A stretch of 64,000 bases of DNA from Microbacterium aurum (GTDB lineage Bacteria > Actinomycetota > Actinomycetes > Actinomycetales > Microbacteriaceae), in contig NZ_JAFBCQ010000001.1 of the NCBI RefSeq assembly GCF_016907815.1, forward strand, positions 2,604,001-2,668,000, in the 5' to 3' direction. The first letter of the stretch is position 1. Each line of letters starts with the position of its first letter. Made by a program: the position numbers and the translations under genes. Below the pieces are notes generated by a model. That model was not told where the DNA came from, searched no databases, and worked only from the letters and a program-made list of their open reading frames with translations. Positions 22,861 through 58,821 of this stretch are shown piece after piece.

Positions 22861-22882
22861 AGTCTAGGCGGGGCCTCCGACA
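22861..22882 (-). promoter_or_regulatory. PafBC-type (RecA-independent) damage promoter of uvrA
   Basis: On the minus strand TGTCGGAG, 8 nt, then TAGACT, then 6 nt to the GTG of uvrA. This matches the consensus TGTCRGTG-N8-TAnnnT known for the RecA-independent DNA-damage promoters of mycobacteria, with A for T at the seventh motif base. The short distance implies transcription starting at the start codon. The motif is seen directly; control by a PafBC homologue is inferred. Confidence 0.65.
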
Positions 22883-22893
22883 CCGCGGCCGGC

Positions 22894-23400
22894 TCAGGGC
22901 GTCGCAGCCGTTCCGGCGTGCGCTCTGCGCGAACTCGCACCGGCCGCGACCGGGTCTCCCGCGGCCGGTGGTCGGCGCCCGGCGAAGGGAGCGAGGGCGT
23001 CGCGGAGGGCGGCGAGCTCACCGGCATCCATCCCGACACGAGCCATGATCTGCTCCGGCACGCCCAGCGCGCGTTCGCGCAGGGCGCCGCCGGCTGACGT
23101 GATCGTGATGTCGAGCTGCCGTTCGTCGTCGGCGTTGCGCGCGCGGGAGACGAGCCCCTGCGCCTCCAGGCGCTTCACGAGCGGGGAGAGCGTCGCCGGC
23201 TCCATCGCCAGCTCCCCCGCGAGGTTCGCGAGCGAGCGCGGGGCATGCTCCCACAGCGCCAGCATGACGAGGTACTGCGGGTGCGTGAGCCCGAGCGGCT
23301 CGAGCACCGGGCGATAGATCGAGACGACGTTGCGGGCCGCGGTGACCAGGGCGAAGCAGAGCTGGTTGTCGAGCTTCAACAGGTCATCGCGGGGGTCCAT
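22894..23400 (-). CDS. MarR-family regulator, OhrR-like
   Basis: 168 aa winged-helix regulator. The N-terminus KLDNQLCFALVTAARNVVSI followed by YRPVLEPLGLTHPQYLVML closely follows the OhrR pattern, with Cys15 at the position of the peroxide-sensing cysteine of Bacillus OhrR. The winged helix spans SLANLAGELAMEPATLSPLVKRLE and VSRARNADDERQLDITIT. The tail past residue 140 is Ala/Arg-rich. No ohr gene is adjacent; instead it is divergent from a small CxxC protein. A TAGAGT lies six bases before the ATG, suggesting a leaderless mRNA, and the palindrome at 23423-23434 would allow self-repression. Confidence 0.85.
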   Translation of the reverse strand: MDPRDDLLKLDNQLCFALVTAARNVVSIYRPVLEPLGLTHPQYLVMLALWEHAPRSLANLAGELAMEPATLSPLVKRLEAQGLVSRARNADDERQLDITITSAGGALRERALGVPEQIMARVGMDAGELAALRDALAPFAGRRPPAAGDPVAAGASSRRAHAGTAATP

Positions 23401-23406
23401 GTCAGC

Positions 23407-23434
23407 ACTCTATCCGGTTTTGTTAGTACACTAA
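23407..23434. promoter_or_regulatory. Divergent promoter with OhrR/MarR-type operator
   Basis: The palindrome TTAGT-AC-ACTAA occupies 23423-23434. On the minus strand TAGAGT (23407-23412) ends six bases before the regulator's ATG, so the palindrome falls near its -35. On the plus strand TACACT (23427-23432) lies inside the palindrome, seven bases before the ATG at 23440. One bound regulator could therefore block both promoters. The arrangement is seen in sequence; binding is inferred. Confidence 0.55.
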
Positions 23435-23439
23435 TGATC

Positions 23440-23679
23440 ATGACACGAAACGATCCCGAACGCCCGCCGCTGCGGGAGCGCGTGCGGGCGGCCGGTGGGT
23501 GGTACGCCTACTGGAACAGTCGGCTGATCCGCCTCGCCGGTCCCGCATCGGTGGGCCCGTTCGACACCGAGCCCGAGCCCGTGCGCACCGAACGATCGTG
23601 TCCACTGTGCGGCCACCCGATGTCGGCGCACACGTTCGACCGCAGCGGCCCCAAACCGCTCATGCACTGCCCGTCCTGA
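23440..23679 (+). CDS. Small zinc-ribbon-like protein of unknown function
   Basis: 79 aa. Start placed at the second ATG (23440), seven bases after TACACT, fitting a leaderless mRNA; an ATG at 23434 would add two residues. The N-terminal half has an aromatic stretch, GGWYAYWNSRLIRLAGPASV. The C-terminal half has CPLCGHPMSAHTFDRSGPKP followed by LMHCPS, a probable metal-binding or redox Cys2-His-Cys arrangement. It is divergent from the OhrR-like regulator and shares its operator region, so it may respond to organic peroxide. I do not recognise a named family. Confidence 0.7.
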   Translation: MTRNDPERPPLRERVRAAGGWYAYWNSRLIRLAGPASVGPFDTEPEPVRTERSCPLCGHPMSAHTFDRSGPKPLMHCPS

Positions 23680-23706
23680 CGCGCCGCCGCGCCGCGCTCG
23701 CGCGCG

Positions 23707-23827
23707 TCAGCGCAGGCGCGTCGAGCCGTCGGCGCCGAGCGTCCAGCCGGGGTTGACCGCGACCTCCCACGCGTGCGAGGTCGGCGACGCCCAGCGTCAC
23801 AAGGCTCAGTCTCTGCTCCATCGGCAT
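23707..23827 (-). pseudogene. VOC/glyoxalase-family gene reduced to its two ends
   Basis: Starting three bases after the uvrB stop, the minus strand encodes MPMEQRLSLVTLGVADLAR, the usual opening of a VOC (glyoxalase/bleomycin-resistance) protein. Directly after it, in another frame, comes HAWEVAVNPGWTLGADGSTR and a stop, which is the usual end of the same family (WEVAxNPxWxLxADG). About 90-100 central residues are missing. The simplest reading is one internal deletion joining the two ends out of frame near 23770. No functional product is expected. Confidence 0.7.
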
Positions 23828-23829
23828 CC

Positions 23830-25911
<2,082 letters not shown>

Positions 25912-25917
25912 CACTCC

Positions 25918-25939
25918 AGCGTAGGCGGGGCCTCCGACA
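25918..25939 (-). promoter_or_regulatory. PafBC-type damage promoter of uvrB
   Basis: Minus strand TGTCGGAG, 8 nt (gccccgcc), TACGCT, then 6 nt to the uvrB ATG. The block from TGTCGGAG through the spacer is identical to that of uvrA. This again implies a leaderless mRNA and shared damage control. Confidence 0.65.
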
Positions 25940-25995
25940 CCGGCATCGGCGTTCGCCGTGGGCGTGGTCCACGACGGCACGCCGACGGCGTCGGT

Positions 25996-26598
25996 TCAGC
26001 CGGTCGCCTGGAGCCGACGCCACAGCGCGTCGGTCTGCGCGATCGTGTGCTCGAGCGTGCCGGCGGTGTCGATCACGACATCGGCGACCGCCAGACGGGC
26101 GGCGTCGTCGACCTGCGAGGCGATGCGGGCGCGGGCGTCGTCCTCGGTCAGCCCCCGCAGCGAGACGAGACGCGCGATGCGGACGGATGCCGGGGCATGC
26201 GCCACGACGATGAGATCCCAGGGATCGTCGACGCGCGCCTCCACCAGCAGCGGCACGTCGTAGACGACGACCGCGCCCGGATCGGCGGCGAACGCCGCCG
26301 CGAAGCGCCGCGCCGACTCCTCCCGTACGGCGGGGTGCACGATGCCGTTCAGGCGCGCGAGGGCGTCGGGGTCGCCGAAGACGACGCCGCCGAGCGCGGC
26401 ACGGTCGAGCGCGCCGTCCGCAGTGAGCATCTCGCCGCCGAAGGCCGCCGCGATCCGCTCCAGCACGGGCGAGCCCGGTGCCTGCACGTCGCGGACGATC
26501 GCGTCGGCGTCGACGATCACCGCACCGTGCTCGGCGAGACGACGCGCGATCGTCGACTTGCCGGAGGCGATCCCTCCGGTCAGCGCGATGAGAGGCAT
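25996..26598 (-). CDS. coaE: Dephospho-CoA kinase
   Basis: 200 aa from the ATG at 26598. It phosphorylates dephospho-CoA in the last step of coenzyme A synthesis. The P-loop LTGGIASGKSTIARRLAEHG is at the N-terminus, followed by VDADAIVRDVQ (acidic residue near the active site). GIVHPAVREE and VYDVPLLVEA are the usual CoaE blocks, and LRGLTEDDARARIASQ is the lid region. Between uvrB and rpsA, as in many actinobacteria, where coaE, uvrB and rpsA cluster; here two signalling genes sit between coaE and rpsA. Confidence 0.95.
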   Translation of the reverse strand: MPLIALTGGIASGKSTIARRLAEHGAVIVDADAIVRDVQAPGSPVLERIAAAFGGEMLTADGALDRAALGGVVFGDPDALARLNGIVHPAVREESARRFAAAFAADPGAVVVYDVPLLVEARVDDPWDLIVVAHAPASVRIARLVSLRGLTEDDARARIASQVDDAARLAVADVVIDTAGTLEHTIAQTDALWRRLQATG

Positions 26599-26611
26599 GG
26601 TCGACAGCCTG

Positions 26612-27790
26612 TCACGACGACGGCGACGACGGCGCATCGAGGAGCACCGAAGCACCGGGCGTCTGTGCGGCACGCTGCGCCGCGTCGCGCGCACCATCCA
26701 GCAGTCGGTCGATGTCATAGCCGGCATCCTCGGTGAAGGCGACACCGACGCTGACGTACGGGAACAGGCCCGACTGCGAGCGGGCGAGCTCCTCGGTGCA
26801 GCCGCGGTAGATCGTCGCGCCCAGGCGTCGCGCGTCGGCGGCCGTCGTCGCCAGCGCGCACACGGCCAGGCGATCGGCCCCGTCCTCGCCGACGATCGCC
26901 GAGGCGGGCGCGTAGCGGCGCACGGCCTGCCGGCAGGCCCCGGTGATGTCATCGGCGACCTCGGGACCGAACGCCGTGCGGATCTCCGAGATGCCCTCGA
27001 CGCGGATGACCACGAGCGCCACCCCCTCCGACCGCCACTGCGCCCGCTCGACGATGTCGGCGCTCGCGCCGGCGAACGTCCCGGCGAGCATGACGCCGTC
27101 GAAGGCCACGCCGCCCTCCGTGAGCCATTCGTAGCGCTGCTCGGAGGTGTGGTGCGAACGCAGCACCGAGGTGACGATGGCGGCGACAACGGTCAGCGTG
27201 ACCGTGACGAAGTTGGCACTGATCGACCCGAGCCATTCCGAGAACAGCGCGCTGTCGTGACCCAGGACGAGGAAGACCGTCAGCCGGACGGCGTAGAAGA
27301 CCGCGGCGATCAGCAGCACCGCCGCCAGCGCCCACGAACTGTGGATGTGCCGCAGCGGCGGGCGCAGGGTCTCGATGGCGCCCGCGACGAACAGCGCCAC
27401 CAGGCACGCCGCCATGGTCGTCCAGCCGCCCCAGCTGCCGAGCGCGTCCGCCTGGAGCAGCGCCGCGACGAAGGTCGCCGCGGCCAGCACCGCGAGCAGA
27501 CCCGCTGCGTAGCCGATCGGACGGTCGTTGAACCGGCGCGTGCCGACCCACATGAACCCGGGCACGAGCACGAACAGGGTGTTGCCGACGGCGACCGACA
27601 GTGCGCCACCGACGCCGGAGGACCAGGCCATGTACGCGACCGTCGTCGCCAGGCCGCAGAAGAACGCGACCGCCCAGAGCCGACCCGGCCCCACGTCGCG
27701 GCGGATGACGGTGTCGAGGATGAAGGTGAGGCTGGCGACGGATGCCACGAGCGCGGTCATCACCGTGACGGTGAACAGATCCAGGGTCAT
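26612..27790 (-). CDS. Membrane protein with degenerate GGDEF domain
   Basis: 392 aa. About seven or eight hydrophobic segments fill residues 5-215, then a cytoplasmic domain of about 170 residues follows. That domain has GGDEF-family layout: WRSEGVALVVIRVEGISEIRTAFG resembles the first strand and helix, but the signature position reads VGEDGADRLAVCAL instead of RxGGDEFxxL. The metal and substrate residues of a diguanylate cyclase are therefore missing, so it is probably a sensor or scaffold rather than an active cyclase. The gene overlaps the upstream histidine kinase by 4 bases (ATGA), suggesting they work together. Confidence 0.75.
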   Translation of the reverse strand: MTLDLFTVTVMTALVASVASLTFILDTVIRRDVGPGRLWAVAFFCGLATTVAYMAWSSGVGGALSVAVGNTLFVLVPGFMWVGTRRFNDRPIGYAAGLLAVLAAATFVAALLQADALGSWGGWTTMAACLVALFVAGAIETLRPPLRHIHSSWALAAVLLIAAVFYAVRLTVFLVLGHDSALFSEWLGSISANFVTVTLTVVAAIVTSVLRSHHTSEQRYEWLTEGGVAFDGVMLAGTFAGASADIVERAQWRSEGVALVVIRVEGISEIRTAFGPEVADDITGACRQAVRRYAPASAIVGEDGADRLAVCALATTAADARRLGATIYRGCTEELARSQSGLFPYVSVGVAFTEDAGYDIDRLLDGARDAAQRAAQTPGASVLLDAPSSPSS

Positions 27791-29457
27791 CGCGTCACCC
27801 GCGTCCCCGCCTTGGCCGGCAGCGCGACGGTGAACGTCGAGCCGACCCCGGGCTCGGAGGCCACCGTCAGCTCACCGTCGTGGGCCCGGACGATCTCGTG
27901 GCTGATGGCAAGTCCCAGGCCGTTGCCGGCGATGTCCTCGGAGGCGCGGAAGAACCGTTCGAAGACGCGACCGCGATCCTCTTCGCCGATCCCGATGCCG
28001 GTGTCGCGCACCGCGATCGTCGTCGTGTCCCCATCGGTGTGGACGGTGACCTCGATCGACCCGCCGTCGCGGTTGAACTTGATCGCATTGCCCAGCAGGT
28101 TGTCGATCACCTGTCGCAGCCGTCCCGGATCGGCGTAGGCGACGGCGCTCTCCGCCCCGTCGACGGTGACCTTGATGACGCGGTCGTCCGCGAGCGGGCG
28201 GAGCGCGAGGATCGACGCGCGCACGATCTCGACCACGTCGATCTCGCGCGGATGCACCGACGACTCCACCGACTGCAGCGAACGCCGCGACGCGGTGAGG
28301 ATGTCGGCGACGATCGCGAGGAGGCGCTCGCTGCTGCTGAGCGCGGTGTCGACGTAGCGGCGGGCGCGCTCCGGCAGGTCCTCCTCGTCGAGCGCGAGTT
28401 CGAGGTAGCCGAGCACCGATGTCAGCGGCGTGCGCAGTTCGTGCGACACCGAGGCGACGAGGTCGTCGCGGGCGCGCAGCGCCTCGCGCTCCGCCGTCAC
28501 ATCGCGTGCCACGAGCACGGCCCCGCCGTCCTCGCCGCGATGGTCGATGAGCCGCCGTGCCGTGAACGTCAGCGCCGAGCGGCGACCCTCGGCATCCTGC
28601 GACCACACCACGACATCGTCGAACGTCTCGCCGCGCCGGGTGCGCGCCAGCGGGTGGTCGTTCGCCGGCAGCGGCGTGCGGCCGTCCTCGGCGAGCAGAG
28701 TCGTCCGCCCCGACGCCGGGTGCAGTTCGGGAATCGCGCTGCTGAGGCGACCGACGGCGTCGTTCTCGTAGACGATGTCACCGCCGACCGACAGCCGCAC
28801 GACGCCGAAGTCGACGGTGTCGAGCACCTCGGTCACCAGCTGCTCCTGGCGCACGGCGGCGGAGCGGGCGAACGCGAGCCGCGCCGCCTGCGCATCGAGC
28901 AGGTCGCGCTGTGCGGTGAACCGGCGTGTGGCCACGTAGCCCGCGCTGCTGATCGCGATGATGACGATCGGCAGCAGCAGGGTCGAGAAGGTGAAGGCGG
29001 ATGCCGGGCCGACCACCAGCAGCACCCAGTACAGCAGCGGGATCAGCACGCAGCTGACGATGAGGCCGGCCAGCCCGAGCGACGCGAGCCACATCGCCGG
29101 GAACGCCCAGAGCAGGCCGAGACCCGCCGGCGGCTCCGCGACGCGCAGCACCGCGATCGCCACGATGTCGACCAGCGGCACGAGAGCGACCCACGCGGGC
29201 GCGACCCTCGTCCACGGGACGGCGAGCGTCGCGATCGTCGCGACGGCGATGAGGAGGGTGCCGATCGCGAACACGCCGGGGCTGCTCAGCACCCCGGCGA
29301 GGGTGCCGCCGACGAACAGGACGACGACGATGCCGCACAACAGCAGTTGGTTGCCGACGGCGACCCGGTCGCGCAAGTCGAACCGCAGTGTCGTGCGCCG
29401 ACGCGTGCGCGGCGTCGCGGACGGCGCACCCGCCGCTGTCGCTCGTCTCATCCGCAC
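27787..29457 (-). CDS. Membrane sensor histidine kinase with PAS-like domain
   Basis: 556 aa. Several hydrophobic segments between about residues 35 and 175 form the membrane part. A PAS-like region at about 205-320 ends in LVARDVTAEREALRARDDLV. The HisKA box VASVSHELRTPLTSVLGYLE places the phosphoacceptor at His339. The ATPase domain has the N box (IDNLLGNAIKFN, about 451), G1 DTGIGI (about 485) and G2 GNGLGLAI (about 511). No response regulator gene is nearby, so this is an orphan kinase. It overlaps the degenerate GGDEF gene downstream. The exact start is uncertain because of a basic, low-complexity N-terminus. Confidence 0.88.
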   Translation of the reverse strand: MRMRRATAAGAPSATPRTRRRTTLRFDLRDRVAVGNQLLLCGIVVVLFVGGTLAGVLSSPGVFAIGTLLIAVATIATLAVPWTRVAPAWVALVPLVDIVAIAVLRVAEPPAGLGLLWAFPAMWLASLGLAGLIVSCVLIPLLYWVLLVVGPASAFTFSTLLLPIVIIAISSAGYVATRRFTAQRDLLDAQAARLAFARSAAVRQEQLVTEVLDTVDFGVVRLSVGGDIVYENDAVGRLSSAIPELHPASGRTTLLAEDGRTPLPANDHPLARTRRGETFDDVVVWSQDAEGRRSALTFTARRLIDHRGEDGGAVLVARDVTAEREALRARDDLVASVSHELRTPLTSVLGYLELALDEEDLPERARRYVDTALSSSERLLAIVADILTASRRSLQSVESSVHPREIDVVEIVRASILALRPLADDRVIKVTVDGAESAVAYADPGRLRQVIDNLLGNAIKFNRDGGSIEVTVHTDGDTTTIAVRDTGIGIGEEDRGRVFERFFRASEDIAGNGLGLAISHEIVRAHDGELTVASEPGVGSTFTVALPAKAGTRVTR

Positions 29458-29513
29458 TCCATGACGCTACCGCTCGCGGCGGGCTCGCCGGGACACGACG
29501 CCCGCAGAACGGC

Positions 29514-29561
29514 GAACGGGCCGCCACCGGCGACGAGAAGGTCGACGGTGACGGCCCGTTC
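29514..29561 (-). terminator. rpsA terminator hairpin
   Basis: Arms gaacgggccgccaccg (29514-29529) and its near-complement (29546-29561) pair over 16 bp with one mismatch and a 16-base loop. It lies just beyond the rpsA stop and before the histidine kinase gene on the same strand. Confidence 0.7.
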
Positions 29562-29575
29562 GGAAGGGGTTCGGC

Positions 29576-31024
29576 TCAGCGACCCGAGAGCTTCTCGCGG
29601 AGCGCCGCGAGCGCCTCGTCGTCGGCGAGGGTGCCGCCGCCGACCGTCTCCGAAGAGAAGGAGGAGGCACCGGTCTCGACCGGAGCGGCCGCCTCAGCCT
29701 CGAGGGCCTTCGCGACGGCAGCCTTGTGCTGCTCCCAGCGCGCCTGAGCGGCGGCGTACTCCTGCTCCCACTTCTCACGCTGCGCGTCGAAGCCCTCGAG
29801 CCAGGCACCCGACTCGGGGTCGAAGCCCTCGGGGTACTTGTACTCGCCGTTCTCGTCGTACTCGGTCGCCATGCCGTACAGCGCCGGGTCGAACTCGGTG
29901 CCGTTGGGGTCGACCGACTCGTTGGCCTGCTTGAGCGACAGCGAGATGCGGCGACGCTCGAGGTCGATGTCGATGATCTTGACGAAGACCTCTTCACCGA
30001 CCGACACGACCTGCTCGGCGAGCTCGACGTGCTTGCCGGAGAGCTCGGAGATGTGCACGAGGCCCTCGATGCCGTCCGCGACGCGGACGAACGCACCGAA
30101 CGGGACGAGCTTGGTGACCTTGCCCGGCGCGACCTGACCGATCGCGTGGGTGCGGGCGAAGACCTGCCACGGGTCCTCCTGCGTCGCCTTCAGCGACAGC
30201 GAGACGCGCTCGCGGTCGAGGTCGACCTCGAGGATCTCGACGGTGACCTCCTGGCCCACCTCGACGACCTCGGAGGCGTGCTCGATGTGCTTCCACGACA
30301 GCTCGGAGACGTGCACGAGGCCGTCCACGCCGCCGAGGTCGACGAACGCACCGAAGTTGACGATCGACGAGACGACACCCTTGCGGACCTGACCCTTGTG
30401 CAGGTTGTTGAGGAACGTGGTGCGCGACTCCGACTGCGTCTGCTCGAGCAGGGCGCGGCGGCTCAGCACGACGTTGTTGCGGTTCTTGTCGAGCTCGAGG
30501 ATCTTCGCCTCGATCTCCTGACCGAGGTACGGCGTGAGGTCGCGGACGCGACGCAACTCGATGAGCGATGCCGGGAGGAACCCGCGCAGGCCGATGTCGA
30601 CGATGAGGCCACCCTTGACGACCTCGATGACGGTGCCGGTGACGACCCCGTCGTTCTCCTTGATCTTCTCGACGTCGCCCCAGGCGCGCTCGTACTGCGC
30701 CCGCTTCTTGGAGAGGATGAGGCGGCCTTCCTTGTCCTCCTTCTGGAGGACGAGGGCTTCGACCTCGTCGCCGACCTTGACGACCTCGTTCGGGTCGACG
30801 TCGTGCTTGATGGAGAGCTCGCGCGAGGGGATGACGCCCTCGGTCTTGTACCCGACGTCGAGGAGGACCTCGTCGCGGTCGATCTTCACGACGGTGCCTT
30901 CGATGAGGTCTCCGTCGTTGAAGAACTTCAGGGTCTTCTCGACCGCGGCCAGGAAGTCCTCAGCAGATCCGATGTCGTTGATGGCGACCTGCTTGGTGGC
31001 CGGGGCGGTCGTTGCGGTAGTCAT
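29576..31024 (-). CDS. rpsA: 30S ribosomal protein S1
   Basis: 482 aa. S1 helps bind mRNA to the 30S subunit. Four S1 RNA-binding repeats are seen, beginning near residues 36 (GDLIEGTVVKIDRDEVLLDVGY), 122 (NDGVVTGTVIEVVKGGLIVDIGL), 210 (KGQVRKGVVSSIVNFGAFVDLGG) and 295 (GQVAPGKVTKLVPFGAFVRVADG). This is the four-repeat actinobacterial form. The C-terminal hundred residues are acidic and Ala/Glu-rich, ending ALAALREKLSGR. An AAGGACAA site precedes the ATG. The gene has a long leader and its own terminator, so it is likely a single-gene transcript. Confidence 0.97.
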   Translation of the reverse strand: MTTATTAPATKQVAINDIGSAEDFLAAVEKTLKFFNDGDLIEGTVVKIDRDEVLLDVGYKTEGVIPSRELSIKHDVDPNEVVKVGDEVEALVLQKEDKEGRLILSKKRAQYERAWGDVEKIKENDGVVTGTVIEVVKGGLIVDIGLRGFLPASLIELRRVRDLTPYLGQEIEAKILELDKNRNNVVLSRRALLEQTQSESRTTFLNNLHKGQVRKGVVSSIVNFGAFVDLGGVDGLVHVSELSWKHIEHASEVVEVGQEVTVEILEVDLDRERVSLSLKATQEDPWQVFARTHAIGQVAPGKVTKLVPFGAFVRVADGIEGLVHISELSGKHVELAEQVVSVGEEVFVKIIDIDLERRRISLSLKQANESVDPNGTEFDPALYGMATEYDENGEYKYPEGFDPESGAWLEGFDAQREKWEQEYAAAQARWEQHKAAVAKALEAEAAAPVETGASSFSSETVGGGTLADDEALAALREKLSGR

Positions 31025-31185
31025 GTAGTGGGTTGTCCTTGTTGGGTTAGATGTCGGGCTCCGGCGAGGCGGTGCCGCCTCAGCATCCGTCCGAAGACGA
31101 GCGAATGCCGCCGCCGGAGCGGTCGGTCAGGGATTGCGTGTCACGATTGCACGGCGAAGAGCCACACGAGTGACAGTCCAGGGTA
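31025..31185 (-). promoter_or_regulatory. rpsA promoter and long 5' leader
   Basis: TACCCT on the minus strand at 31180-31185 is a plausible -10, giving a leader of about 145-150 nt before the rpsA ATG. The leader ends with a Shine-Dalgarno site (aaggac). The rest, to 31238, holds no gene. A long leader on rpsA is compatible with autoregulation by S1, but no specific fold was established. Confidence 0.35.
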
Positions 31186-31238
31186 TCAGAGATCGCGGGA
31201 GCGCCGCCGGCGATGTCATCCTCCCCCGGCGGGCGCCG

Positions 31239-32230
31239 TCAGCCCATCAGCGGGTCGGCGGGGTGCTGCGGATCCAGCGCAGGGGCGCCGGGGCGTGACA
31301 GGGTCAGCACCGCCCACGCCACCCGCGGGCTGCGAGCCAGCTCATCCTCGATCGCGTTCAGCCGCGCGGCGACGGTGTGCTCCGCGGTGTCGCCCTCGAG
31401 ATCGACGGCCGCGACGAGGGAGACACGTCCGGGGCCGACGTATTCGATGTGCAGATAGGTGATCTGGGCGATCTCCGGCTGGGCGAGCAGCCACTGCACC
31501 GCGGCGGCGCGGACCTCGGGCTCGACCACCACACCGACGAGGAACCGCCGGTTCTGCCGGATGAGCACGACGGCGACGACCGCGAGCAGCACGCCCACGA
31601 GGATCGAGCCGACAGCGTCGGGCACCGCGGACCCGGTCACCTGGTGCAGCAGAATCCCGCCGAAGGCGATGACGAGGCCGATGAGCGCCGCGGCATCCTC
31701 GAAGAACACCGCGCCCGGCGTCGGGTCGGACGTGCCCATCACATAGTCGAGCAGGTCGCGATGACTCTCCCGAGCGTCACGACGCGACTGCCGCAGCGCC
31801 TGCAGGAACGAGGTCCCCTCGAGGACGAACGCCACCGCCAGCGCGGCGTAGGAGACGCCGAACAGCTCGGCGGGCGCCGGGTTCAGCAGTTCCTGATGCC
31901 GTGCATGATCGAGACCCCGGCGCCGACGGCGAACAGGCCGAACGCCGCGAACAGCGACCACACGTACGCGTCGCGCCCGTAGCCGGCCGGATGCCGCGGG
32001 TCGCGCGGCCGCACCGCGCGTCGCGCGGCGACGTAGAGGAAGACCTCGTTGCCGGTGTCGGCCCAGGAGTGCGCCGCCTCGGCGAGCATGCTGGCGGCGC
32101 CGGTGAGCACGGCGGCGACGGTCTTCGCGATCGCGATGAGCAGGTTCGCGCCGAACGCGATCAGCACCGTGAGCATCGACTCGGGTTGCGGCGCGGCGCG
32201 GTCCGGGCGGGTCGGCGACGTGGGCATCAC
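31239..32230 (-). pseudogene. Cation-efflux (CDF) transporter gene with a single-base frameshift
   Basis: Two minus-strand reading frames together make one cation diffusion facilitator of about 330 aa. The first (from 32230, or the ATG at 32227) has two helices with the metal-site motif MLAEAAHSWADTGNEVFL and ends GAGVSIMHGIRNC-stop. The second resumes at QELLNPAPAELFGVSYAALA and continues through VFFEDAAALIGLVIAFGGIL to the cytoplasmic ferredoxin-like domain. Restoring one base near 31895 (ATCAG to ATCCAG) gives HGIQELLNP, the expected family sequence. CDF proteins export Zn, Fe, Mn or Co. This is either a genuine recent mutation or a sequencing error. Confidence 0.8.
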
Positions 32231-32255
32231 GTTACGCCCGCGCGCCGGATCGGCG

Positions 32256-32684: not shown

Positions 32685-32699
32685 GGGCTCGATCGTACG

Positions 32700-32708
32700 T
32701 GTGGATAA
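32700..32708 (-). promoter_or_regulatory. Perfect DnaA-box 9-mer
   Basis: TTATCCACA on the minus strand, identical to the consensus DnaA box, between divergent ychJ and the lipoprotein gene and just upstream of the ychJ -10. A single box in GC-rich sequence is notable but could be chance or a titration site. Confidence 0.35.
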
Positions 32709-32747
32709 CCTGATCGCGCGTCGGCGGAGGTGGCTAACGTGGGGCGC

Positions 32748-34036: not shown

Positions 34037-34073
34037 CCGCGCTGCCGCAGCCGTCCGCGGATAGACTCCGCGC

Positions 34074-48449: not shown

Positions 48450-48594
48450 GGTGCACCTTTCGGGGTCATGAAGGTCGAACACCTTCAGTCTAGGGCAACC
48501 TCCCACCCGATTCAGGCCATCCGCCCAGGATGTCAACCACTATCGGAGGGGCCGGAGGCCCGGATCCGCGCGTGCGCGGCGGAGCGGGAGCCGC

Positions 48595-48963: not shown

Positions 48964-49041
48964 GGGTGCCTCCGCAGGGTGTCAGGCCGCACGTCCGGAA
49001 CCGGGCGCGCGCGGTGCGATGTGCTCGATTCTACCGCCGCG

Positions 49042-50469: not shown

Positions 50470-50555
50470 GCGGGTAATCTTATGGGGCACGAACCGCGCG
50501 CCGCCCGCGGATCGCACCCCGCTCGCAACGCGCCCAGACATCGAGGTTCCACCCC

Positions 50556-51116
50556 GTGGCCAAGAACTCCGCAGCCCCCGACGCCGCCCCCGAGGTCCCC
50601 GCCGGACCCGGCAAGAACCGTCCGACGCCCTCGCGCGCCGAGCAGGAGGCCGCCCGGAAGCGTCCCCTCGTCGCCGACACCAAGGAGGCGCGCGCCCGCG
50701 CGAAGGCCGAGCTCGCCGCCCAGCGCGAGAAGGCCCGCATCGGCATGGCCAACGGCGACGAGAGGTATCTGCCGGTGCGCGACAAGGGCCCGCAGCGCCG
50801 GTTCGTGCGGGACTGGGTCGACTCGGGGTGGCACGCCGGCGAGCTGCTGATGCCGCTCATGCTCGTCGTGATCCTGCTGAACCTCGTGCCCAACACCGCG
50901 ATCGTCTATTACGGCTTCGTCGGGCTGTGGCTGTTCATCATGTTCGTCGTCGTCGACATGATCTTCACCAGCATCCGGGTCAAGAAGCTGGCGCGCGCGA
51001 AGTTCGGCGAGCGCACCGAGAAGGGCCTCGGCTGGTACGCCGCGATGCGCACGATCCAGATGCGCTTCATGCGCCTGCCCAAGCCGCAGGTCAAGCGCGG
51101 CCAGCGCCCGGCCTGA
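50556..51116 (+). CDS. DUF3043 membrane protein
   Basis: 186 aa, GTG start. The N-terminal 60 residues are basic and coiled-coil-like (PTPSRAEQEAARKRPLVADT then KEARARAKAELAAQREKARI). The conserved DERYLPVRDKGPQRRFVRDWVDSGW precedes two transmembrane helices (LLMPLMLVVILLNLV and VGLWLFIMFVVVDMIF). A basic tail follows with FGERTEKGLGWYAAMRTIQMR. The family is actinobacterial and of unknown function. Divergent from the M20 peptidase and convergent with pyrD. Confidence 0.9.
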   Translation: MAKNSAAPDAAPEVPAGPGKNRPTPSRAEQEAARKRPLVADTKEARARAKAELAAQREKARIGMANGDERYLPVRDKGPQRRFVRDWVDSGWHAGELLMPLMLVVILLNLVPNTAIVYYGFVGLWLFIMFVVVDMIFTSIRVKKLARAKFGERTEKGLGWYAAMRTIQMRFMRLPKPQVKRGQRPA

Positions 51117-51278
51117 GCGCCCGCTCCCCCGTCGCGGTGGCCGCGGCATCCGTCGCCGCCTCCCTCGCCGCCGGGATCATGCGCGGCGCGGCGCGCTCAA
51201 CCGACGCACAGCGCGCCTACCCGCCGCTACAACAGCAACGTGCGACGGACGACGGCAGCGCAGGCGACCGCGACGCCG

Positions 51279-52307
51279 TCAGTCGCGCGCGGCGAGCAGC
51301 CCTCGGTTGATCTGACGCGCCCACAGCGGCCCGCGGTAGATGAAGGCGGTGTAGCCCTGGACGAGGGTCGCCCCGGCATCCAGCCGCTCCTGGACATCGG
51401 CGGCGGTCTCCACTCCCCCGGCTGCGATGACGCAGAAATCCTCCGGCACCGCGGCGCGGACGATGCGCAGCACCTCCAGCGCGCGCGCCTTCAGCGGCGC
51501 ACCCGACAACCCACCCGCCCCCATCGCCGCGACGGCGGCCGCCGGGGTGCGCAGCCCCTCGCGCTCGATCGTCGTGTTGGTCGCGACGATGCCCGACAGC
51601 CCCGCATCCACCGCGAGGCGGGCGATGGCGGACACCTCGTCGTCGGGCAGGTCAGGGGCGATCTTCACGAGCAGCGGCGTCGTACCCGCGGCATCCCGCA
51701 CCGCCTCCAACAGGGGCCGGAGCGTCTCGACCGCCTGCAGGCCGCGCAGCCCCGGCGTGTTCGGCGAAGACACGTTCACGACGAGGTAGTCGGCCACGGG
51801 CGCGACGAGCTTCGTGCTCGTGACGTAGTCGGCCGTCGCGTGCTCGACGTCGACGATGCGGCTCTTGCCGATGTTCGCGCCCAGCACGGCGCGACGCGGA
51901 TGCCGACGCGAGCGGCGCAGGCGCTGTGCGGCCGCCGCGGCCCCGGCATTGTTGAATCCCATCCGGTTGATGAGCGCGCGATCGGCCACGAGACGGAACA
52001 GCCGCGGCTTGGCGTTTCCGTCCTGCGGCACCGTCGTCACCGTCCCCGCCTCGACGTGACCGAATCCGAGCGCGTACAGCCCCTCGCTCATCACCGCGTT
52101 CTTGTCGAACCCGGCCGCCACGCCGAACGGCGAGTCGAACGCGAGCCCCAGCGCCTCGGTGCGCAGGCGCGGGTCGGGCCGGGTCAGCGCGCGCACGATC
52201 GGGCGCAGCGGCCAGACTCCGAACGCGCGGATCACCGGCACGACGAGATGGTGGGCGCGCTCGGGATCCATGCGCGAGAAGACGGTGCGGAAGATGAGCG
52301 GATACAT
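51279..52307 (-). CDS. pyrD: Dihydroorotate dehydrogenase (quinone), class 2
   Basis: 342 aa. Oxidises dihydroorotate to orotate with FMN, passing electrons to membrane quinone. The N-terminal helix pair (YPLIFRTVFSRMDPERAHHL) is the class 2 membrane-contact extension. FMN and substrate blocks: LAFDSPFGVAAGFDKNA, NRMGFNNAG, LGANIGKSR, VNVSSPNTPGLR (catalytic Ser region), PLLVKIAPDLPDDEV, and VIAAGGVETAADV. TAGGCT lies seven bases before the ATG, so the transcript may start at the gene despite following nrdR by 52 bases. Confidence 0.96.
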   Translation of the reverse strand: MYPLIFRTVFSRMDPERAHHLVVPVIRAFGVWPLRPIVRALTRPDPRLRTEALGLAFDSPFGVAAGFDKNAVMSEGLYALGFGHVEAGTVTTVPQDGNAKPRLFRLVADRALINRMGFNNAGAAAAAQRLRRSRRHPRRAVLGANIGKSRIVDVEHATADYVTSTKLVAPVADYLVVNVSSPNTPGLRGLQAVETLRPLLEAVRDAAGTTPLLVKIAPDLPDDEVSAIARLAVDAGLSGIVATNTTIEREGLRTPAAAVAAMGAGGLSGAPLKARALEVLRIVRAAVPEDFCVIAAGGVETAADVQERLDAGATLVQGYTAFIYRGPLWARQINRGLLAARD

Positions 52308-52359
52308 CGCCTCCAGCCTACGGCGCGGCGGGCATCGGGCCCTGCCGCACCGGCCGTCG

Positions 52360-52821
52360 TTATTCCGCGACGCGCTGGTGGTCGGCGCGCAGCTGCGCGA
52401 TGGAGGACTCGAAGTCCTCCAGCGAGTCGAACGCCTGATACACGCTCGCGAAGCGCAGGTACGCGACCTCGTCGAGCTCGCGCAGCGGGCCGAGGATCGC
52501 CAGCCCGATCTCGTTGGTGTCGATCTGCGACGATCCGGTCTGGCGGACCGCCTCCTCGACGGCCTGCGCGAGCATCGCGAGATCGGCTTCGGTCACCGGG
52601 CGCCCCTGGCAGGCTTTGCGGACGCCGGACATCACCTTCTCGCGGCTGAACGGCTCGATGACGCCGGAGCGCTTGATGACGTTGAGGCTGGCCGTCTCGA
52701 TCGTCGAGAACCGGCCGCCGCACTCCGGGCACTGCCGGCGGCGGCGGATGCTGAGACCGTCGTCGCTCGTGCGGGAGTCGATCACCCGCGAGTCGGCGTG
52801 GCGACAGAAGGGACAGTGCAT
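52360..52821 (-). CDS. nrdR: Transcriptional repressor NrdR
   Basis: 153 aa. NrdR binds NrdR boxes to repress ribonucleotide reductase genes, sensing ATP/dATP. The zinc ribbon is [20 protein letters not shown] with the second Cys pair in [15 protein letters not shown]. An ATP-cone domain follows ([20 protein letters not shown]), continuing through [20 protein letters not shown]. The ATG overlaps the hisD stop by one base. No nrd genes are present in the window. Confidence 0.96.
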
Positions 52822-54149
52822 CAGCGCGCTCCGTCCTGTGCGAATCGCGCCACGACGGCCTCGCCGTGCGCGGGCAGGGCCTCGGCCGTCGCGAGGGCGA
52901 CGATCCCATCCTGCACGTCGGCCAGTGCGGCGCGATCGTAGGCGATGATCTGCTGCGGACGCAGGAAGGTGGATGCCGACAGGCCGGCCGCGTAGCGGGC
53001 CTGACCCCCCGTAGGCAGGACGTGGTTGCTGCCGGCGAGGTAGTCGCCGAGACTCACCGGCGAGTGACCGCCGACGAACACCGCGCCCGCGTTGACGAAA
53101 GCGTCCACGCGGGGGTCCCCCAGCTCGAGCCCGTCGAGGTGCAGCTCCAGGTGTTCCGGGGCGTAGGCGTTGCTGAAGGCGGTGGCCGCGGCGATGTCGT
53201 CGACGAGCACGATCGCGGATTGCGGGCCGCCCAGGGCGGCGGCGACGCGGTCGGCGTGCCGCGTCGTGGCGGCGCGCGCGGCCACACGCGTGGCGACCGC
53301 GTCGGCGAGCTCTGCCGAATCGGTGACCAGCACGGCGGCGGCCTGCTCGTCGTGCTCGGCCTGGCTCACGAGGTCGGCGGCGACCCAGTCCGCGTCGGCG
53401 GAGGCGTCGGCGACGACGAGGATCTCGGTGGCGCCGGCTTCGGAGTCGGTGCCCACGACGCCGGCGACGACCCGCTTCGCGAGCGCGACGAAGTTGTTGC
53501 CCGGGCCGGAAATGACGTCGACCCGCTCGAGGCCGAGCCCCGGCACGCCGTACGCGTACGCGCCGATCGCGCCCGCGCCGCCCATGGCGTACACCTCCTC
53601 GACGCCCAGCAGCCGGGCTGCGGCGAGGATCACGGGGTGCACGCGGCCGGCGAACTCGGCCTGCGGCGGCGAGGCGAGCACGACGTGCGTGACACCGGCG
53701 ACCTGCGCCGGCACGACGTTCATGACGACGCTGGACGGATAGACGGCCTTGCCGCCGGGGACGTAGACGCCGACGCGCTCCGCGGGGCGCCAGCGCTGCT
53801 CGACGCGCGCGCCGGCGCCGAGCTCGGTGACGCGCACCGGCGGGATCTGCGCGGCCGAGGCTTCCCGCACCCGGCGGATGGCTTCTTCGAGCGCGGCGCG
53901 CACGGCGCGATCCAGCCCGCCGAGCGCCTCGTCGAGGTGGTGCTGCGGCACCCGGATGTCGTGACCCTGAACATTGTCGAACTGGGCGGCCTGCTCGCGC
54001 AGCGCCTCTTCGCCGCGTGCGGCGACGTCGTGGACGATCCGTGCGGCGACGGTCAGCGCCTCGTCACGGGCAGCGGTCGCCCGCGGCACGGCGGCGAGCA
54101 GCTCGGGCGTGCTCAGGGCGCGACCGCGCAAGTCGATGGTGCGGAGCAT
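52821..54149 (-). CDS. hisD: Histidinol dehydrogenase
   Basis: 442 aa. Catalyses the last two NAD-dependent steps of histidine synthesis. Characteristic blocks: [40 protein letters not shown], the Glu/His metal and base residues in [15 protein letters not shown], and [21 protein letters not shown] near the C-terminus. Other his genes are absent from the window. It lies between a membrane-protein gene and nrdR, with a 9-base gap upstream, which suggests cotranscription from the dnaE side. A TAACCT six bases before the ATG might also give a local start, but it overlaps the upstream stop. Confidence 0.96.
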
Positions 54150-54158
54150 CCGTCCAGG

Positions 54159-55214
54159 TTACCCGCGCGTCACGCCGGAGACGTCGCGGAGGTAGCCGAT
54201 GCGGCCGTCCTCATGACGCACGACGAAACTGTCGCCACGATCCTCGATCACGAGCGCCCACGCGGTGGGTCCGATCGTGAACAGGGGCACACCGTTCTCA
54301 TCGACGACGTCGCGCTCCACGGGCGCGAGCGCCCAGAACGCCTGCGACGCGGACGGCGCGGGCTCGACATCGGCGATCACCGTCGTCTCGGGGGCCGCAG
54401 TCTCCGCCACCGGAGCCGCCGCGTACGCGCCGGCATCCGTCGCCTGCGGAGTCTGAGCCGCGTACGGGCTCGCAGTGTGCGGTGCGGCGGCAGGCGCCGG
54501 CCGGGGCGCCGCGGGGCGCGCGACGACGGGGCGGGCGGGGCGCGCGAAGCGATGTGCGGGCACCTCGGGGCGGTGGCGGAAGTCCTCGCCGATGGTGGGG
54601 AACAGCGGCGCGAACACCGTCAGCAGGACGCCCGCGAGCATGAGGATGAACTCGACCCACACGACCCACGTCGACAGGAAGATGCCCGTGCCCGAGACGG
54701 AGACGAACGAGCTCCACAGCAGGCCCAGCCAGATGATCGCCGAGACCGAGAAGGCGACGGAGGCGAACTGGTCGATGCCGAGCGAGCCGACGCGGCGGAT
54801 GCCCTGCGGGGACAGCCGGCGCAGACCCAGCAGGAACACCGCGATCGTCGGCGTGCCGATCGTCAGCAGCCAGTCGATGCCGGTCCACACCGACGGCCCG
54901 GCTCCGGCGCGGCCGTAGTCGTAGATCGGGAAGAACGAGAAGACGAACGCGAGCAGCCAGACGCCCGCGAGCGCGACCTCGCGAATGGAGAACGGCCCGA
55001 CGCCGTACTGCGGCGGCGCCGACGCGTCGACGCCCTCCGGTCCGTCGGTGAGGGCCTCGAAGGCCTCGGCGAACGACGCGTAGGTCACGTCGTCATCGTG
55101 CCCGGATGCCGGGGCCTCACCCTCGCGGGACTCATCAGCCGCCGCGTCGGTGGCGGGAGCGATGACGGGCTCGGCCGCCGGTTCGGTCTCGGGGGTGTTC
55201 TTCTCGTCGGTCAC
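54159..55214 (-). CDS. Membrane protein of unknown function between dnaE and hisD
   Basis: 351 aa from the GTG at 55214, preferred because GGAAGG is nine bases upstream; an ATG at 55223 directly follows the same site. The N-terminal 70 residues are acidic and disordered. Four to five hydrophobic segments lie between about residues 85 and 215 (VALAGVWLLAFVFSFFPIYD and IFLSTWVVWVEFILMLAG). An Ala/Pro-rich linker follows, then a small C-terminal domain (FTIGPTAWALVIEDRGDSFV) of about 60 residues that looks like an SH3- or GYF-like fold. No family is certain. Codon use matches neighbours. Confidence 0.8.
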   Translation of the reverse strand: MTDEKNTPETEPAAEPVIAPATDAAADESREGEAPASGHDDDVTYASFAEAFEALTDGPEGVDASAPPQYGVGPFSIREVALAGVWLLAFVFSFFPIYDYGRAGAGPSVWTGIDWLLTIGTPTIAVFLLGLRRLSPQGIRRVGSLGIDQFASVAFSVSAIIWLGLLWSSFVSVSGTGIFLSTWVVWVEFILMLAGVLLTVFAPLFPTIGEDFRHRPEVPAHRFARPARPVVARPAAPRPAPAAAPHTASPYAAQTPQATDAGAYAAAPVAETAAPETTVIADVEPAPSASQAFWALAPVERDVVDENGVPLFTIGPTAWALVIEDRGDSFVVRHEDGRIGYLRDVSGVTRG

Positions 55215-55273
55215 GGTGCGCATCCTTCCGGAACGGGAAACTCCACAGCGATCCTACTCTTCGGTCGCCGGCC

Positions 55274-58200
55274 TCACCCGAGACATTGCGGACCGAGAAG
55301 CCCCTTCAGCTCGCCGTACAGGTCGACCGTGACGCCCACCTGGGCAGGCACCTCGAACACCTTCGCGACGCCGCCCTTGTGCAGCTTCAGCGTCACCTCG
55401 GTGGTGCCGGGGTGACGCCCGAACACCTCGACGAGCTGACCGATCGTCGATTCGGTGGCGCGGTGCTCGGGCATGAGCAGGACGAGGGGTCCCGCGGCAT
55501 CCATCGACCCGAGGTCCGGCGAGAAGGCGGACTGGCCGTGCAGGTTCAGGCCGTCGTCGCGTCGCGACACGCGCCCCCGCACGACGAGGATCGAGTCGGC
55601 GACGAGCATCGACGAGAACTCGGTGTAGGTCTTGCCCATGAACATGACGGTCACCTCGCCGTCGAAGTCCTCGACCGTGATCATGCCGTAGGGGTTGCCG
55701 CTCTGCTTCGCGACGCGGTGCTGCACGCTCGTGACCAGACCCGCGACGGTGACGATGTCGCCGTCGTTCACGTCATCCGAGGCGAGGAGGTCGTGGATCG
55801 AGGTCGACGCGTGCTTGGCGAGCGGGATCTCGAGCCCGGCCAGCGGATGGTCCGAGACGTAGAGGCCGAGCATCTCGCGCTCGAAGGCGAGCTTGTCCTT
55901 CTTCGTCCACTCCGGCCGGTCGGGAACCTTCTGCACCGCCTGCGGCTCGTCGTCGCCCCACAGGCTGTCGAAGTCGAAGCCGACCTCGCCGTTCGCCTCG
56001 CGTCGCTTGTCGAGCACCGCCTGCTCGGTGGCGTCCTCATGGATCTCCATCAGCGCGCGGCGCGTGGAGCCGAGCGAGTCGAACGCGCCCGCCTTGATGA
56101 GCGATTCGATCGTGCGCTTGTTCGCCACCTGCGCGGGCACGCGCGTGAGGAAGTCGTGGAACCCGGTGTAGGGGCCGGACTCGCGGGCCGCGACGATCCC
56201 GTCGACGACGTTGGCGCCGACGTTGCGCACGGCGCCCAGGCCGAAGCGGATGTCGTCGCCGACGGCGGCGAAGTAGCGGATCGACTCGCTGACGTCGGGC
56301 GGCAGCACCTTGATGCCCATGCGGCGGCACTCGTTGAGGTACACCGCCATCTTGTCCTTCGAGTCGCCGACGCTCGTGAGGAGCGCGGCCATGTACTCGG
56401 CGGGATAGTGGGCCTTCAGGTACGCCGTCCAGTACGACACCAGGCCGTAGGCGGCGGAGTGCGCCTTGTTGAAGGCGTAGTCCGAGAACGGCAGGAGGAT
56501 GTCCCACAGCGCCTGGATCGCGCCCTCCCCGAAGCCGCGCTCCTTCATGCCGCCGGAGAAGCCCTCGTACTGCTTGTCCAGCTCGGACTTCTTCTTCTTG
56601 CCCATCGCGCGGCGCAGGATGTCGGCCTGACCGAGGGAGAACCCGGCGACCTTCTGCGCGATGGCCATGACCTGCTCTTGGTAGATGATCAGGCCGTAGG
56701 TCGTGTCGAGGATGTCGCGCAGCGGCTCTTCGAGCTCGGGATGGATCGGGGTGATCGGCTGCTGCCCGTTCTTGCGCAGCGCGTAGTTGGTGTGCGAGTT
56801 CGCGCCCATCGGACCGGGACGGTACAGCGCGATGACGGCGGAGATGTCCTCGAAGTTGTCGGGCTTCATGAGGCGCAGGAGCGCCCGCATCGGGCCGCCG
56901 TCGAGCTGGAAGACGCCCAGGGTGTCGCCGCGGGTCAGCAGATCGTACGCGTCGCGATCGTCGAGGCTGAGGTGCTCGAGGTCGATCTCCTCGCCACGGT
57001 TCATGCGAATGTTGTCGAGGGCGTCGGAGATGATCGTGAGGTTGCGCAGCCCCAGGAAGTCCATCTTGATGAGACCGAGCGCCTCGCACGACGGGTAGTC
57101 GAACTGCGTGACGATCTGGCCGTCCTGCTCGCGGCGCATGATGGGGATGATGTCCAGCAGCGGCTCCGAGGACATGATGACCCCGGCCGCGTGCACGCCC
57201 CACTGGCGCTTCAGGCCCTCGAGCCCGAGCGCCCGGTCGAAGACCGTCTTCGCCTCGGGGTCGGTCTCGATGAGGCTGCGGAACTCGCTCGCCTCCTTGA
57301 ACCGCGGATGCTCGGGGTTGAACATGCCGCCGAGCTCCATGTCCTTGCCCATGACGGGCGGCGGCATGGCCTTGGTGAGGCGCTCGCCCATGCTGAACGG
57401 GAAGCCGAGCACGCGCCCGGCATCCTTCAGCGCCTGCTTGGACTTGATGGTGCCGTACGTGACGATCTGCGCGACCCGCTCGGAGCCGTACTTCTGCGTC
57501 ACGTAGTCGATGACCTCGCCGCGGCGCCGGTCGTCGAAGTCGACGTCGAAGTCGGGCATGGAGACACGGTCGGGGTTGAGGAAGCGCTCGAAGATGAGGC
57601 CGTGCTCGAGCGGGTCGAGGTCGGTGATCTTCATCGCGTAGGCGACCATGGATCCGGCGCCGGAACCACGTCCGGGTCCGACGCGGATGCCGTTGTCCTT
57701 AGCCCAGTTGATGAAGTCGGCGACGACGAGGAAGTACCCCGGGAACCCCATCTGCAGGATGATCCCGGTCTCGTACTCCGCTTGCTTTCTGACCTTGTCG
57801 GGGATGCCGGCGGGGTACCGGTAGTGCAGGCCCTTCTCGACCTCTTTGATGAGCCAGCTGTCCTCGGTCTCGCCGTCGGGCACCGGGAAGCGGGGCATGT
57901 AGTTCGCGGCGGTGTTGAACTCGACCTGGCACCGCTCCGCGATCAGGAGCGTGTTGTCGCACGCCTCCGGATGGTCGCGGAAGAGCTGGCGCATCTCCTG
58001 CGCCGTCTTGATGTAATAGCCGTCGCCGTCGAACTTGAACCGGTTCGGATCGTCCAGCGTCGACCCCGACTGCACGCAGAGCAGCGCCTCGTGGGCGTCA
58101 GCCTCGTGCTGGTGCGTGTAGTGGGAGTCGTTGGTGGCGACCAGCGGGATGTCGAGATCCTTCGCGAGTCGCAGCAGGTCGGTCATGATGCGGCGCTCGA

Positions 58201-58792
58201 TCGAGAGGCCGTGATCCATGATCTCGGCGAAGTAGTTCTCCTTGCCGAAGATGTCCTGGAACTCCGCGGCGGCGGCGCGCGCGGCGTCGTACTGCCCCAG
58301 TCGCAGCCGGGTCTGCACCTCACCGGACGGGCACCCGGTCGTCGCGATGAGGCCCTTGCCGTAGGTCTGCAGCAGTTCCCGGTCCATGCGGGGCTTGAAG
58401 TAGTACCCCTCCATGCTCGAGCGGGAGCTCAGCCGGAACAGGTTGTGCATGCCCGCGGTGTTCTCGCTCCACAGCGTCATGTGCGTGTACGCGCCCGAGC
58501 CGGACACGTCGTCGCTCTTCTGGTCGGGCGAGCCCCACGCGACCCGGGACTTGTCGCTGCGGTGCGTGCCGGGGGTGACGTAGGCCTCGAGCCCGATGAT
58601 CGGGTTCACGCCCGCGGCCTTGGCCGCGTTGTAGAACTCGAACGCCGCGAACGTGTTGCCGTGGTCGGTGACGGCGATCGCCGGCATCCCGTATTCGGCT
58701 GCCGCCTTCGTCATCGCACCGATCTTCGCGGCTCCGTCGAGCATCGAGTACTCGCTGTGCACGTGCAGGTGTACGAAGGAGTCGGATGCCAC
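55274..58792 (-). CDS. dnaE: DNA polymerase III alpha subunit
   Basis: 1172 aa, the replicative DnaE1 type. The N-terminal PHP domain has an intact metal site start (FVHLHVHSEYSMLDGA, His8/10/12). In DnaE1 proteins of actinobacteria this domain supplies proofreading. Catalytic Asp residues lie in VSMPDFDVDFDDRRRG (Asp416 and Asp418), preceded by RVGPGRGSGAGSMVAY. The C-terminal part has the helix-hairpin-helix region and an OB fold (TVAGLVTSVQHRVAKQSGNP). The GTG lies six bases after TAGACT in a PafBC-like promoter, suggesting damage-responsive and leaderless expression. Confidence 0.97.
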   Translation of the reverse strand: MASDSFVHLHVHSEYSMLDGAAKIGAMTKAAAEYGMPAIAVTDHGNTFAAFEFYNAAKAAGVNPIIGLEAYVTPGTHRSDKSRVAWGSPDQKSDDVSGSGAYTHMTLWSENTAGMHNLFRLSSRSSMEGYYFKPRMDRELLQTYGKGLIATTGCPSGEVQTRLRLGQYDAARAAAAEFQDIFGKENYFAEIMDHGLSIERRIMTDLLRLAKDLDIPLVATNDSHYTHQHEADAHEALLCVQSGSTLDDPNRFKFDGDGYYIKTAQEMRQLFRDHPEACDNTLLIAERCQVEFNTAANYMPRFPVPDGETEDSWLIKEVEKGLHYRYPAGIPDKVRKQAEYETGIILQMGFPGYFLVVADFINWAKDNGIRVGPGRGSGAGSMVAYAMKITDLDPLEHGLIFERFLNPDRVSMPDFDVDFDDRRRGEVIDYVTQKYGSERVAQIVTYGTIKSKQALKDAGRVLGFPFSMGERLTKAMPPPVMGKDMELGGMFNPEHPRFKEASEFRSLIETDPEAKTVFDRALGLEGLKRQWGVHAAGVIMSSEPLLDIIPIMRREQDGQIVTQFDYPSCEALGLIKMDFLGLRNLTIISDALDNIRMNRGEEIDLEHLSLDDRDAYDLLTRGDTLGVFQLDGGPMRALLRLMKPDNFEDISAVIALYRPGPMGANSHTNYALRKNGQQPITPIHPELEEPLRDILDTTYGLIIYQEQVMAIAQKVAGFSLGQADILRRAMGKKKKSELDKQYEGFSGGMKERGFGEGAIQALWDILLPFSDYAFNKAHSAAYGLVSYWTAYLKAHYPAEYMAALLTSVGDSKDKMAVYLNECRRMGIKVLPPDVSESIRYFAAVGDDIRFGLGAVRNVGANVVDGIVAARESGPYTGFHDFLTRVPAQVANKRTIESLIKAGAFDSLGSTRRALMEIHEDATEQAVLDKRREANGEVGFDFDSLWGDDEPQAVQKVPDRPEWTKKDKLAFEREMLGLYVSDHPLAGLEIPLAKHASTSIHDLLASDDVNDGDIVTVAGLVTSVQHRVAKQSGNPYGMITVEDFDGEVTVMFMGKTYTEFSSMLVADSILVVRGRVSRRDDGLNLHGQSAFSPDLGSMDAAGPLVLLMPEHRATESTIGQLVEVFGRHPGTTEVTLKLHKGGVAKVFEVPAQVGVTVDLYGELKGLLGPQCLG

Positions 58793-58798
58793 GGATCG

Positions 58799-58821
58799 AG
58801 TCTACGGCGGGGCCACCGACA
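58799..58821 (-). promoter_or_regulatory. PafBC-type damage promoter of dnaE
   Basis: Minus strand TGTCGGTG, 9 nt (gccccgccg), TAGACT, then 6 nt to the GTG of dnaE. The first motif is an exact match to TGTCRGTG; spacing is one longer than for uvrA and uvrB. The plus strand has its own TAGGCT at 58830-58835 for the NUDIX gene. Confidence 0.6.

Follow-up and report, generated by a model that had tools for sequence, protein, structure and literature searches.

A putative PafBC-type DNA-damage promoter shared by uvrA, uvrB and dnaE in Microbacterium aurum

The excision-repair genes uvrA and uvrB and the gene for the replicative DNA polymerase, dnaE, begin in Microbacterium aurum just downstream of similar sequence elements, for which a common PafBC-type damage promoter is a well-supported reading. 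The genes lie in a 64,000-nt stretch (positions 2604001-2668000 of a 3.41-Mb genome in a single contig; hereafter the window), and we put the probability that their promoters are PafBC-dependent, of the RecA-NDp type, at roughly 0.8. The first-pass annotation of this DNA had proposed the same reading, which is now backed by strict spacing of the motif, leaderless placement, sites rich in repair genes, the presence of PafB and PafC, the lack of enrichment in family f43 and the recurrence of the site at dnaE. Promoters of this kind are known; what appears new, as far as we have checked, is the lineage and the reach, namely a predicted PafBC-type regulon in Microbacterium without a Pup ligase and a putative dnaE site recurring in 10 of the 17 order families compared.

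Promoter layout in the window

At all three genes, exactly 6 nt separate a TANNNT hexamer from the start codon, and all are read from the minus strand (Table 1). The complete strings are TGTCGGAG-GCCCCGCC-TAGACT-N6-GTG for uvrA, TGTCGGAG-GCCCCGCC-TACGCT-N6-ATG for uvrB and TGTCGGTG-GCCCCGCCG-TAGACT-N6-GTG for dnaE. The letters and coordinates originally assigned to these sites all proved correct, and Pfam agrees with the gene names. TGTCGG stands 10 nt from TANNNT at uvrA and uvrB and 11 nt from it at dnaE. In the available portions of PMC8151990 the mycobacterial motif is given as TGTCGG-N10-TANNNT, with TGTCAG and TGTCAC as reported variants. The suggested fit to a mycobacterial damage-promoter consensus is thus borne out, with the 10-nt distance present at both uvr genes and, at dnaE, only the rarer 11-nt form, which is found in relatives too.

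Without mismatches, TGTCGGNG-N8-TANNNT matches only the two uvr sites in the window and TGTCGGNG-N9-TANNNT only the dnaE site. Even the reduced pattern TGTC-N12/13-TANNNT, searched over the 64 kb on both strands, returned just these three, in line with the earlier statement that the window holds no other full match. When two mismatches were allowed, the N8 form occurred 61 times, above the shuffle mean of 34.6, and the N9 form 34 times against 33.6 in shuffles, which is no excess. uvrC begins within the stop codon of uvrA, so both genes are probably transcribed together from the promoter of uvrA.

A NUDIX gene (58842-59312, plus strand) diverges from dnaE and has its own leaderless-looking TAGGCT-N6-ATG at 58829-58842 (plus strand). 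The start codons of the two genes are about 50 nt apart, so their promoters overlap back to back.

Table 1. Predicted promoter elements, the genes behind them and the PafB and PafC reading frames.
Feature	Position	Strand	Remarks
-26 element, PafBC-type, uvrA(-uvrC)	22875..22882	-	TGTCGGAG; predicted from sequence
-10 element of uvrA	22861..22866	-	TAGACT; GTG start at 22854, 6 nt on; leaderless layout
-26 element, PafBC-type, uvrB	25932..25939	-	TGTCGGAG; predicted from sequence
-10 element of uvrB	25918..25923	-	TACGCT; ATG start at 25911, 6 nt on
-26 element, PafBC-type, dnaE	58814..58821	-	TGTCGGTG; predicted from sequence
-10 element of dnaE	58799..58804	-	TAGACT; spacer 9 nt instead of 8; GTG start at 58792, 6 nt on
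uvrA	19942..22854	-	970 aa; Pfam UvrA_inter, UvrA_DNA-bind
uvrC	17924..19942	-	Pfam; start codon overlaps uvrA stop (TGATG)
uvrB	23830..25911	-	693 aa counted from ATG at 25911; Pfam
dnaE, replicative DNA polymerase III alpha	55274..58792	-	1172 aa, PHP domain; Pfam
PafB	L037:6752-7753	-	PafB (N-)half of PDB 6sj9, E 1.3e-40; M. smegmatis chains of PafB type
PafC	L037:5793-6755	-	PafC (C-)half of PDB 6sj9, E 3.6e-35; M. smegmatis PafC

Genomic sites and the genes behind them

Across the genome, TGTCGGNG-N8/9-TANNNT occurs at 33 sites (31 N8 and two N9), against three for the reversed pattern. Because the reversed pattern differs in its dinucleotides, we added controls with wrong spacings: TGTCGG-N10-TANNNT occurs 48 times, compared with 26 for the ten spacings N13-22 taken together (2.6 per spacing). 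An ATG or GTG that lies 4-9 nt downstream and opens at least 100 codons follows 22 of the 33 motif sites and 2 of the 26 wrong-spacing sites (Fisher p = 3.5e-6). The background rate of such leaderless-like placement is not small, as 18 of all 65 TANNNT hexamers in the window have it, the three sites included; the motif sites exceed this rate as well (Fisher p = 0.0004). One of the 22, in a piece of an ABC transporter (L014), looks intragenic.

Behind 14 of the 33 sites lie genes of repair, recombination or replication (32 were scanned, L006 being left out). These encode a SprT-like protein, two exonucleases III (xth), SbcD, a TM0106 RecB-like nuclease, an AlkZ-like glycosylase, two UvrD-type helicases (one PcrA-like), an SRAP protein, UvrA, UvrB, DnaE, RecA and a DnaQ-like exonuclease that NCBIfam PRK07942 names Pol III epsilon. 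Twelve of the 14 are leaderless in layout, the exceptions being the RecB-like nuclease and recA, which start 18 and 104 nt after the hexamer. One more of the 33 sites is followed by nrdH, nrdI and then an nrdE-like frame (L016:1501-2507), the leader being some 260 nt long; the nrdE assignment and the distance were judged by eye.

The remaining sites lie before DUF222, DUF222/HNH, MFS, GNAT, hydrolase, ABC, peptidase, other or Pfam-unmatched genes, or inside genes, so not every site can be taken for a repair promoter. Among the wrong-spacing sites, the 18 of 26 with a scanned reading frame showed no clear repair gene, a DEAD-box helicase and an N6-methylase coming nearest. This contrast of 14 against 0 is uneven, since the genes behind the motif sites were picked by hand from reading frames of at least 60 aa and those behind the controls were the longest frame of at least 100 aa, present at 18 of 26. 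The first-pass annotation had asked whether the motif might be equally common inside genes or before unrelated genes; the outcome speaks against this, albeit with 19 of 33 sites not clearly before repair or replication genes.

Two details that had been taken for signatures of the lineage were not upheld. Position 7 of the motif, A at both uvr genes, is A at 12, C at nine, G at five and T at five of the 31 N8 sites. The supposedly fixed spacer GCCCCGCC is found at just 2 of these 31, plus dnaE, and the dnaE spacer differs from that of the window in all seven other sampled genomes of the genus.

PafB, PafC and the motif in relatives

The check for pafB and pafC homologues found both. The genome holds three WYL-domain matches, two of them in adjacent, overlapping reading frames at about 2551.8-2553.8 kb, which match PDB 6sj9 and 7p5x (Table 1) and have no NCBIfam model match. 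In their neighbourhood (L037, G000:C1:2546000-2560000), an FKBP-like frame comes before the pair and tatA, tatC and a helicase-like frame after it; the eight frames scanned here, five named through NCBIfam and the two WYL frames unnamed, include no pupylation gene. The Pup_ligase family (PF03136), to which PafA and Dop belong, matched in none of the 59 genus genomes searched, of which 52 are at least 90% complete, and did match in the positive control, Corynebacterium glutamicum. PafBC thus appears to persist in this genus without pupylation, as far as the Pup_ligase family tells.

In 149 order genomes we compared the abundance of the motif with the presence of PafC. Motif counts, taken as log ratios to those of the reversed control, rose with the PafC profile score (Spearman rho 0.59, kinship ignored). 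The motif/control count was 335/31 in ten genomes of the window's own family, and 13 of the 18 order families with PafC matches had ratios from 5.8 to 28. PafC was unmatched in a single family, f43 (11 of 11 genomes), on which absence within the order therefore rests, and the motif was not enriched there (53/84). Two families match PafC and yet show no enrichment (f6, 67/92; f52, 82/75), in which recognition may have shifted or the regulon shrunk. Enrichment is weak despite PafC in three more (f2, 120/63; f42, 153/49; f46, 7/2 in one genome), and several enriched genomes have only weak PafC matches (G264, 34/1; G351, 20/0; G253, 17/2; G246, 42/9).

For the class as a whole, a single-sequence PafC search matched 243 of 246 genomes, paralogous WYL proteins likely among them, and as it does not discriminate, the order was searched with a PafC alignment instead. 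The three genomes unmatched in this search (G025, G060 and G068) carry the motif 15, 9 and 13 times, where wrong spacings predict 1.5, 1.4 and 5.5. With 71 of the 246 genomes summed, enrichment over wrong spacings was 13.2-fold in the window's family (13 genomes), 7.8-fold in genus g28 (23 genomes of 5.8-11 Mb), but only 1.2-fold in family f28 and 1.5-fold in family f34.

For dnaE we collected 116 upstream regions, from the 113 of 149 order genomes that match a degenerate dnaE-start pattern and three further members of the window's family; G250 and G273, with two copies each, are represented by one, one region (L114) is shortened by a contig end, and the set excludes the family without PafC, in which the start pattern is unmatched. 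TGTC precedes TANNNT by 12 nt in 40 regions and by 13 nt in three; the remaining spacings between 4 and 26 give 0-1 regions each, and spacings 27 and 28 three and four; ten wrong spacings summed matched two regions. CGTC at 12 nt adds a further 21 regions, and 52 have neither tetramer at the required spacing. At the 67 leaderless dnaE -10 sites, TGTC lies at 12 nt in 29, at 13 nt in three and at neither in 35. Kinship between genomes makes counts by family more reliable than counts by genome, and 10 of 17 families have at least one dnaE site (for example f45, 9/10; f48, 8/10, farther upstream; f4, 7/10; f1, 6/13). In the eight sampled genomes of the window's genus, TGTC (six) or CGTC (two) lies 12-13 nt before the dnaE -10, with the start codon 6-7 nt after it; the family's other genera have no dnaE site (0 of 5 genomes).

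A scan of named genomes for the dnaE site gave at least 116 loci, of which 80 are listed by name. Because the loci were picked by the motif itself, they show how widely the site is distributed and not how common it is, and an individual record may match by chance. Among the matches listed are Microbacterium, Demequina, Cellulomonas, Cellulosimicrobium, Arthrobacter, Paenarthrobacter, Kocuria, Nocardia, Rhodococcus, Mycobacterium/Mycolicibacterium and others. Of the loci, at least 116 in all, 106 have N12 and ten N13; TGTCGG is present at 76, and TAGACT is the most frequent -10 (60). Microbacterium sp. K24 (L189) has the same dnaE promoter and start as order genome G148. Three records labelled Spirochaetaceae, Stenotrophomonas maltophilia and Acidobacteria (L190, L198 and L231) have actinobacterial-type dnaE starts and promoters, and are probably mis-binned or contaminating contigs.

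Alternative readings, mechanism and known systems

The same sites could be constitutive or otherwise regulated extended promoters, independent of PafBC, with TGTCGG recognised by RNA polymerase itself or by another factor. uvrA, uvrB and dnaE need basal expression, many leaderless dnaE -10 sites (35/67) have no TGTC at 12-13 nt, f6 and f52 have PafC without enrichment, and G025, G060 and G068 are enriched with PafC unmatched in the single-sequence search. The distance from TGTCGG to the -10, however, is too short for a sigma-A -35 element. It matches that of the PafBC motif in the text available of PMC8151990; the 14 sites before repair or replication genes and the lack of enrichment in the family without a PafC match argue in the same direction, and we consider PafBC-independent promoters improbable. 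A little less so, although still unlikely, is that uvrA and uvrB are PafBC targets and that dnaE has, with a 9-nt spacer, a weak or decayed element which supports basal transcription only. Such spacers are indeed a minority (3 of 43 dnaE sites in the 116 regions, 10 of at least 116 named-genome loci and 2 of 33 genomic sites), but TGTC or CGTC at the dnaE promoter in all eight sampled genomes of the genus and the 9-nt form in 4 of 7 listed Arthrobacter/Paenarthrobacter records (L182, L223, L232 and L249) suggest that its function has been retained.

A near-identical stretch of 16-17 nt at three sites within 36 kb might also reflect chance resemblance or a dispersed DNA repeat. Other genomic sites and the relatives, however, share the motif blocks and spacing only, with a varying spacer, and wrong spacings are rare; on these controls we rejected that origin, the likelihood of which we regard as negligible. 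Shared SOS control of the three genes was rejected as well, because SOS boxes are missing: GAACNNNNGTTC, the SOS-box consensus used here, has no exact match in the window and 17 matches with one mismatch against 19.4 by chance, the nearest about 230 nt from the uvrA site and 320 nt from the dnaE site.

Read as PafBC-dependent promoters, the three sites would fit a mechanism for which ssDNA activation, sigma adaptation and the -26 element come from work in M. smegmatis, as excerpted from PMC11804915. DNA damage would yield ssDNA that is bound by the WYL domains of a PafB-PafC heterodimer; the activated PafBC would let housekeeping RNA polymerase (sigma A) open promoters with a TANNNT -10 and without a -35, the HTH of PafB reading the -26 TGTCGG element 10-11 nt upstream of the -10. 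Transcription would begin at or beside the start codon, giving leaderless mRNAs of uvrA(C), uvrB and dnaE, and a joint rise could be expected in excision, recombination, AP-site and crosslink repair together with the replicative polymerase, the DnaQ-like exonuclease and nrdHIE. PafBC binding, damage induction and 5' ends at the three promoters are all predictions from the DNA sequence.

That the replicative polymerase is tied to the excision-repair regulon, as the first-pass annotation proposed, agrees with the same element at dnaE, uvrA and uvrB and with recurrence of the dnaE site across the order, induction being the predicted part. The breadth of this site suggests that many relatives share a dnaE damage switch that would raise normal replication capacity upon DNA damage. 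We lean slightly towards a broader view, in which the PafBC response in many families of the order, and in some Mycobacterium and Nocardia, raises a high-fidelity replication core (Pol III alpha and, in this genome, also the DnaQ-like exonuclease and nrdHIE) along with excision repair, and in Microbacterium does so in the absence of Pup ligase, which elsewhere contributes to turning the response off. If so, an essential replicative polymerase would be linked to the damage response, and damage-induced replication capacity would be an old part of the PafBC response, beside error-prone bypass. PafBC has so far been worked out in mycobacteria, and a motif-defined Microbacterium regulon with a sharp spacing rule would make it testable in soil bacteria. 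In the available parts of PMC5656591, the proteins that decrease in M. smegmatis without pafBC include HolB, a Pol III subunit. The literature searched, which excludes the primary regulon papers, yielded no mention of dnaE1 as a PafBC target in the parts available, and an earlier report is possible; it also yielded no paper on PafBC in Microbacterium.

The LexA/RecA SOS regulon has overlapping repair targets such as uvrA and recA, according to the excerpted literature, and differs in that the three promoters here have no SOS box by the consensus given above. DriD of Caulobacter is likewise a WYL-domain, SOS-independent damage activator that binds ssDNA (excerpts of PMC12340889 and PMC11804915); unlike PafBC, it is a homodimer with a small regulon and no PafB/PafC pair (excerpt of PMC11804915). 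For Streptomyces venezuelae, the accessible text of PMC9380542 reports a negative motif search and leaves open whether such a pathway works in Streptomyces. The closest counterpart is the mycobacterial PafBC regulon with its RecA-NDp (P1) promoters, which shares TGTCGG-N10-TANNNT, PafB and PafC orthologues and, in the published passages available, repair targets including recA, uvrA and uvrC. The available part of PMC8223512 describes pafBC and Pup ligase as tightly associated in one locus and the promoter as spread beyond mycobacteria, whereas pafBC is kept here in a genus in which Pup ligase matched in 0 of 59 genomes. The Microbacterium set further differs from the mycobacterial one in the predicted element on the DnaQ-like exonuclease and on nrdHIE, may differ from it in that on dnaE, and has a leaderless layout at 22 of its 33 sites.
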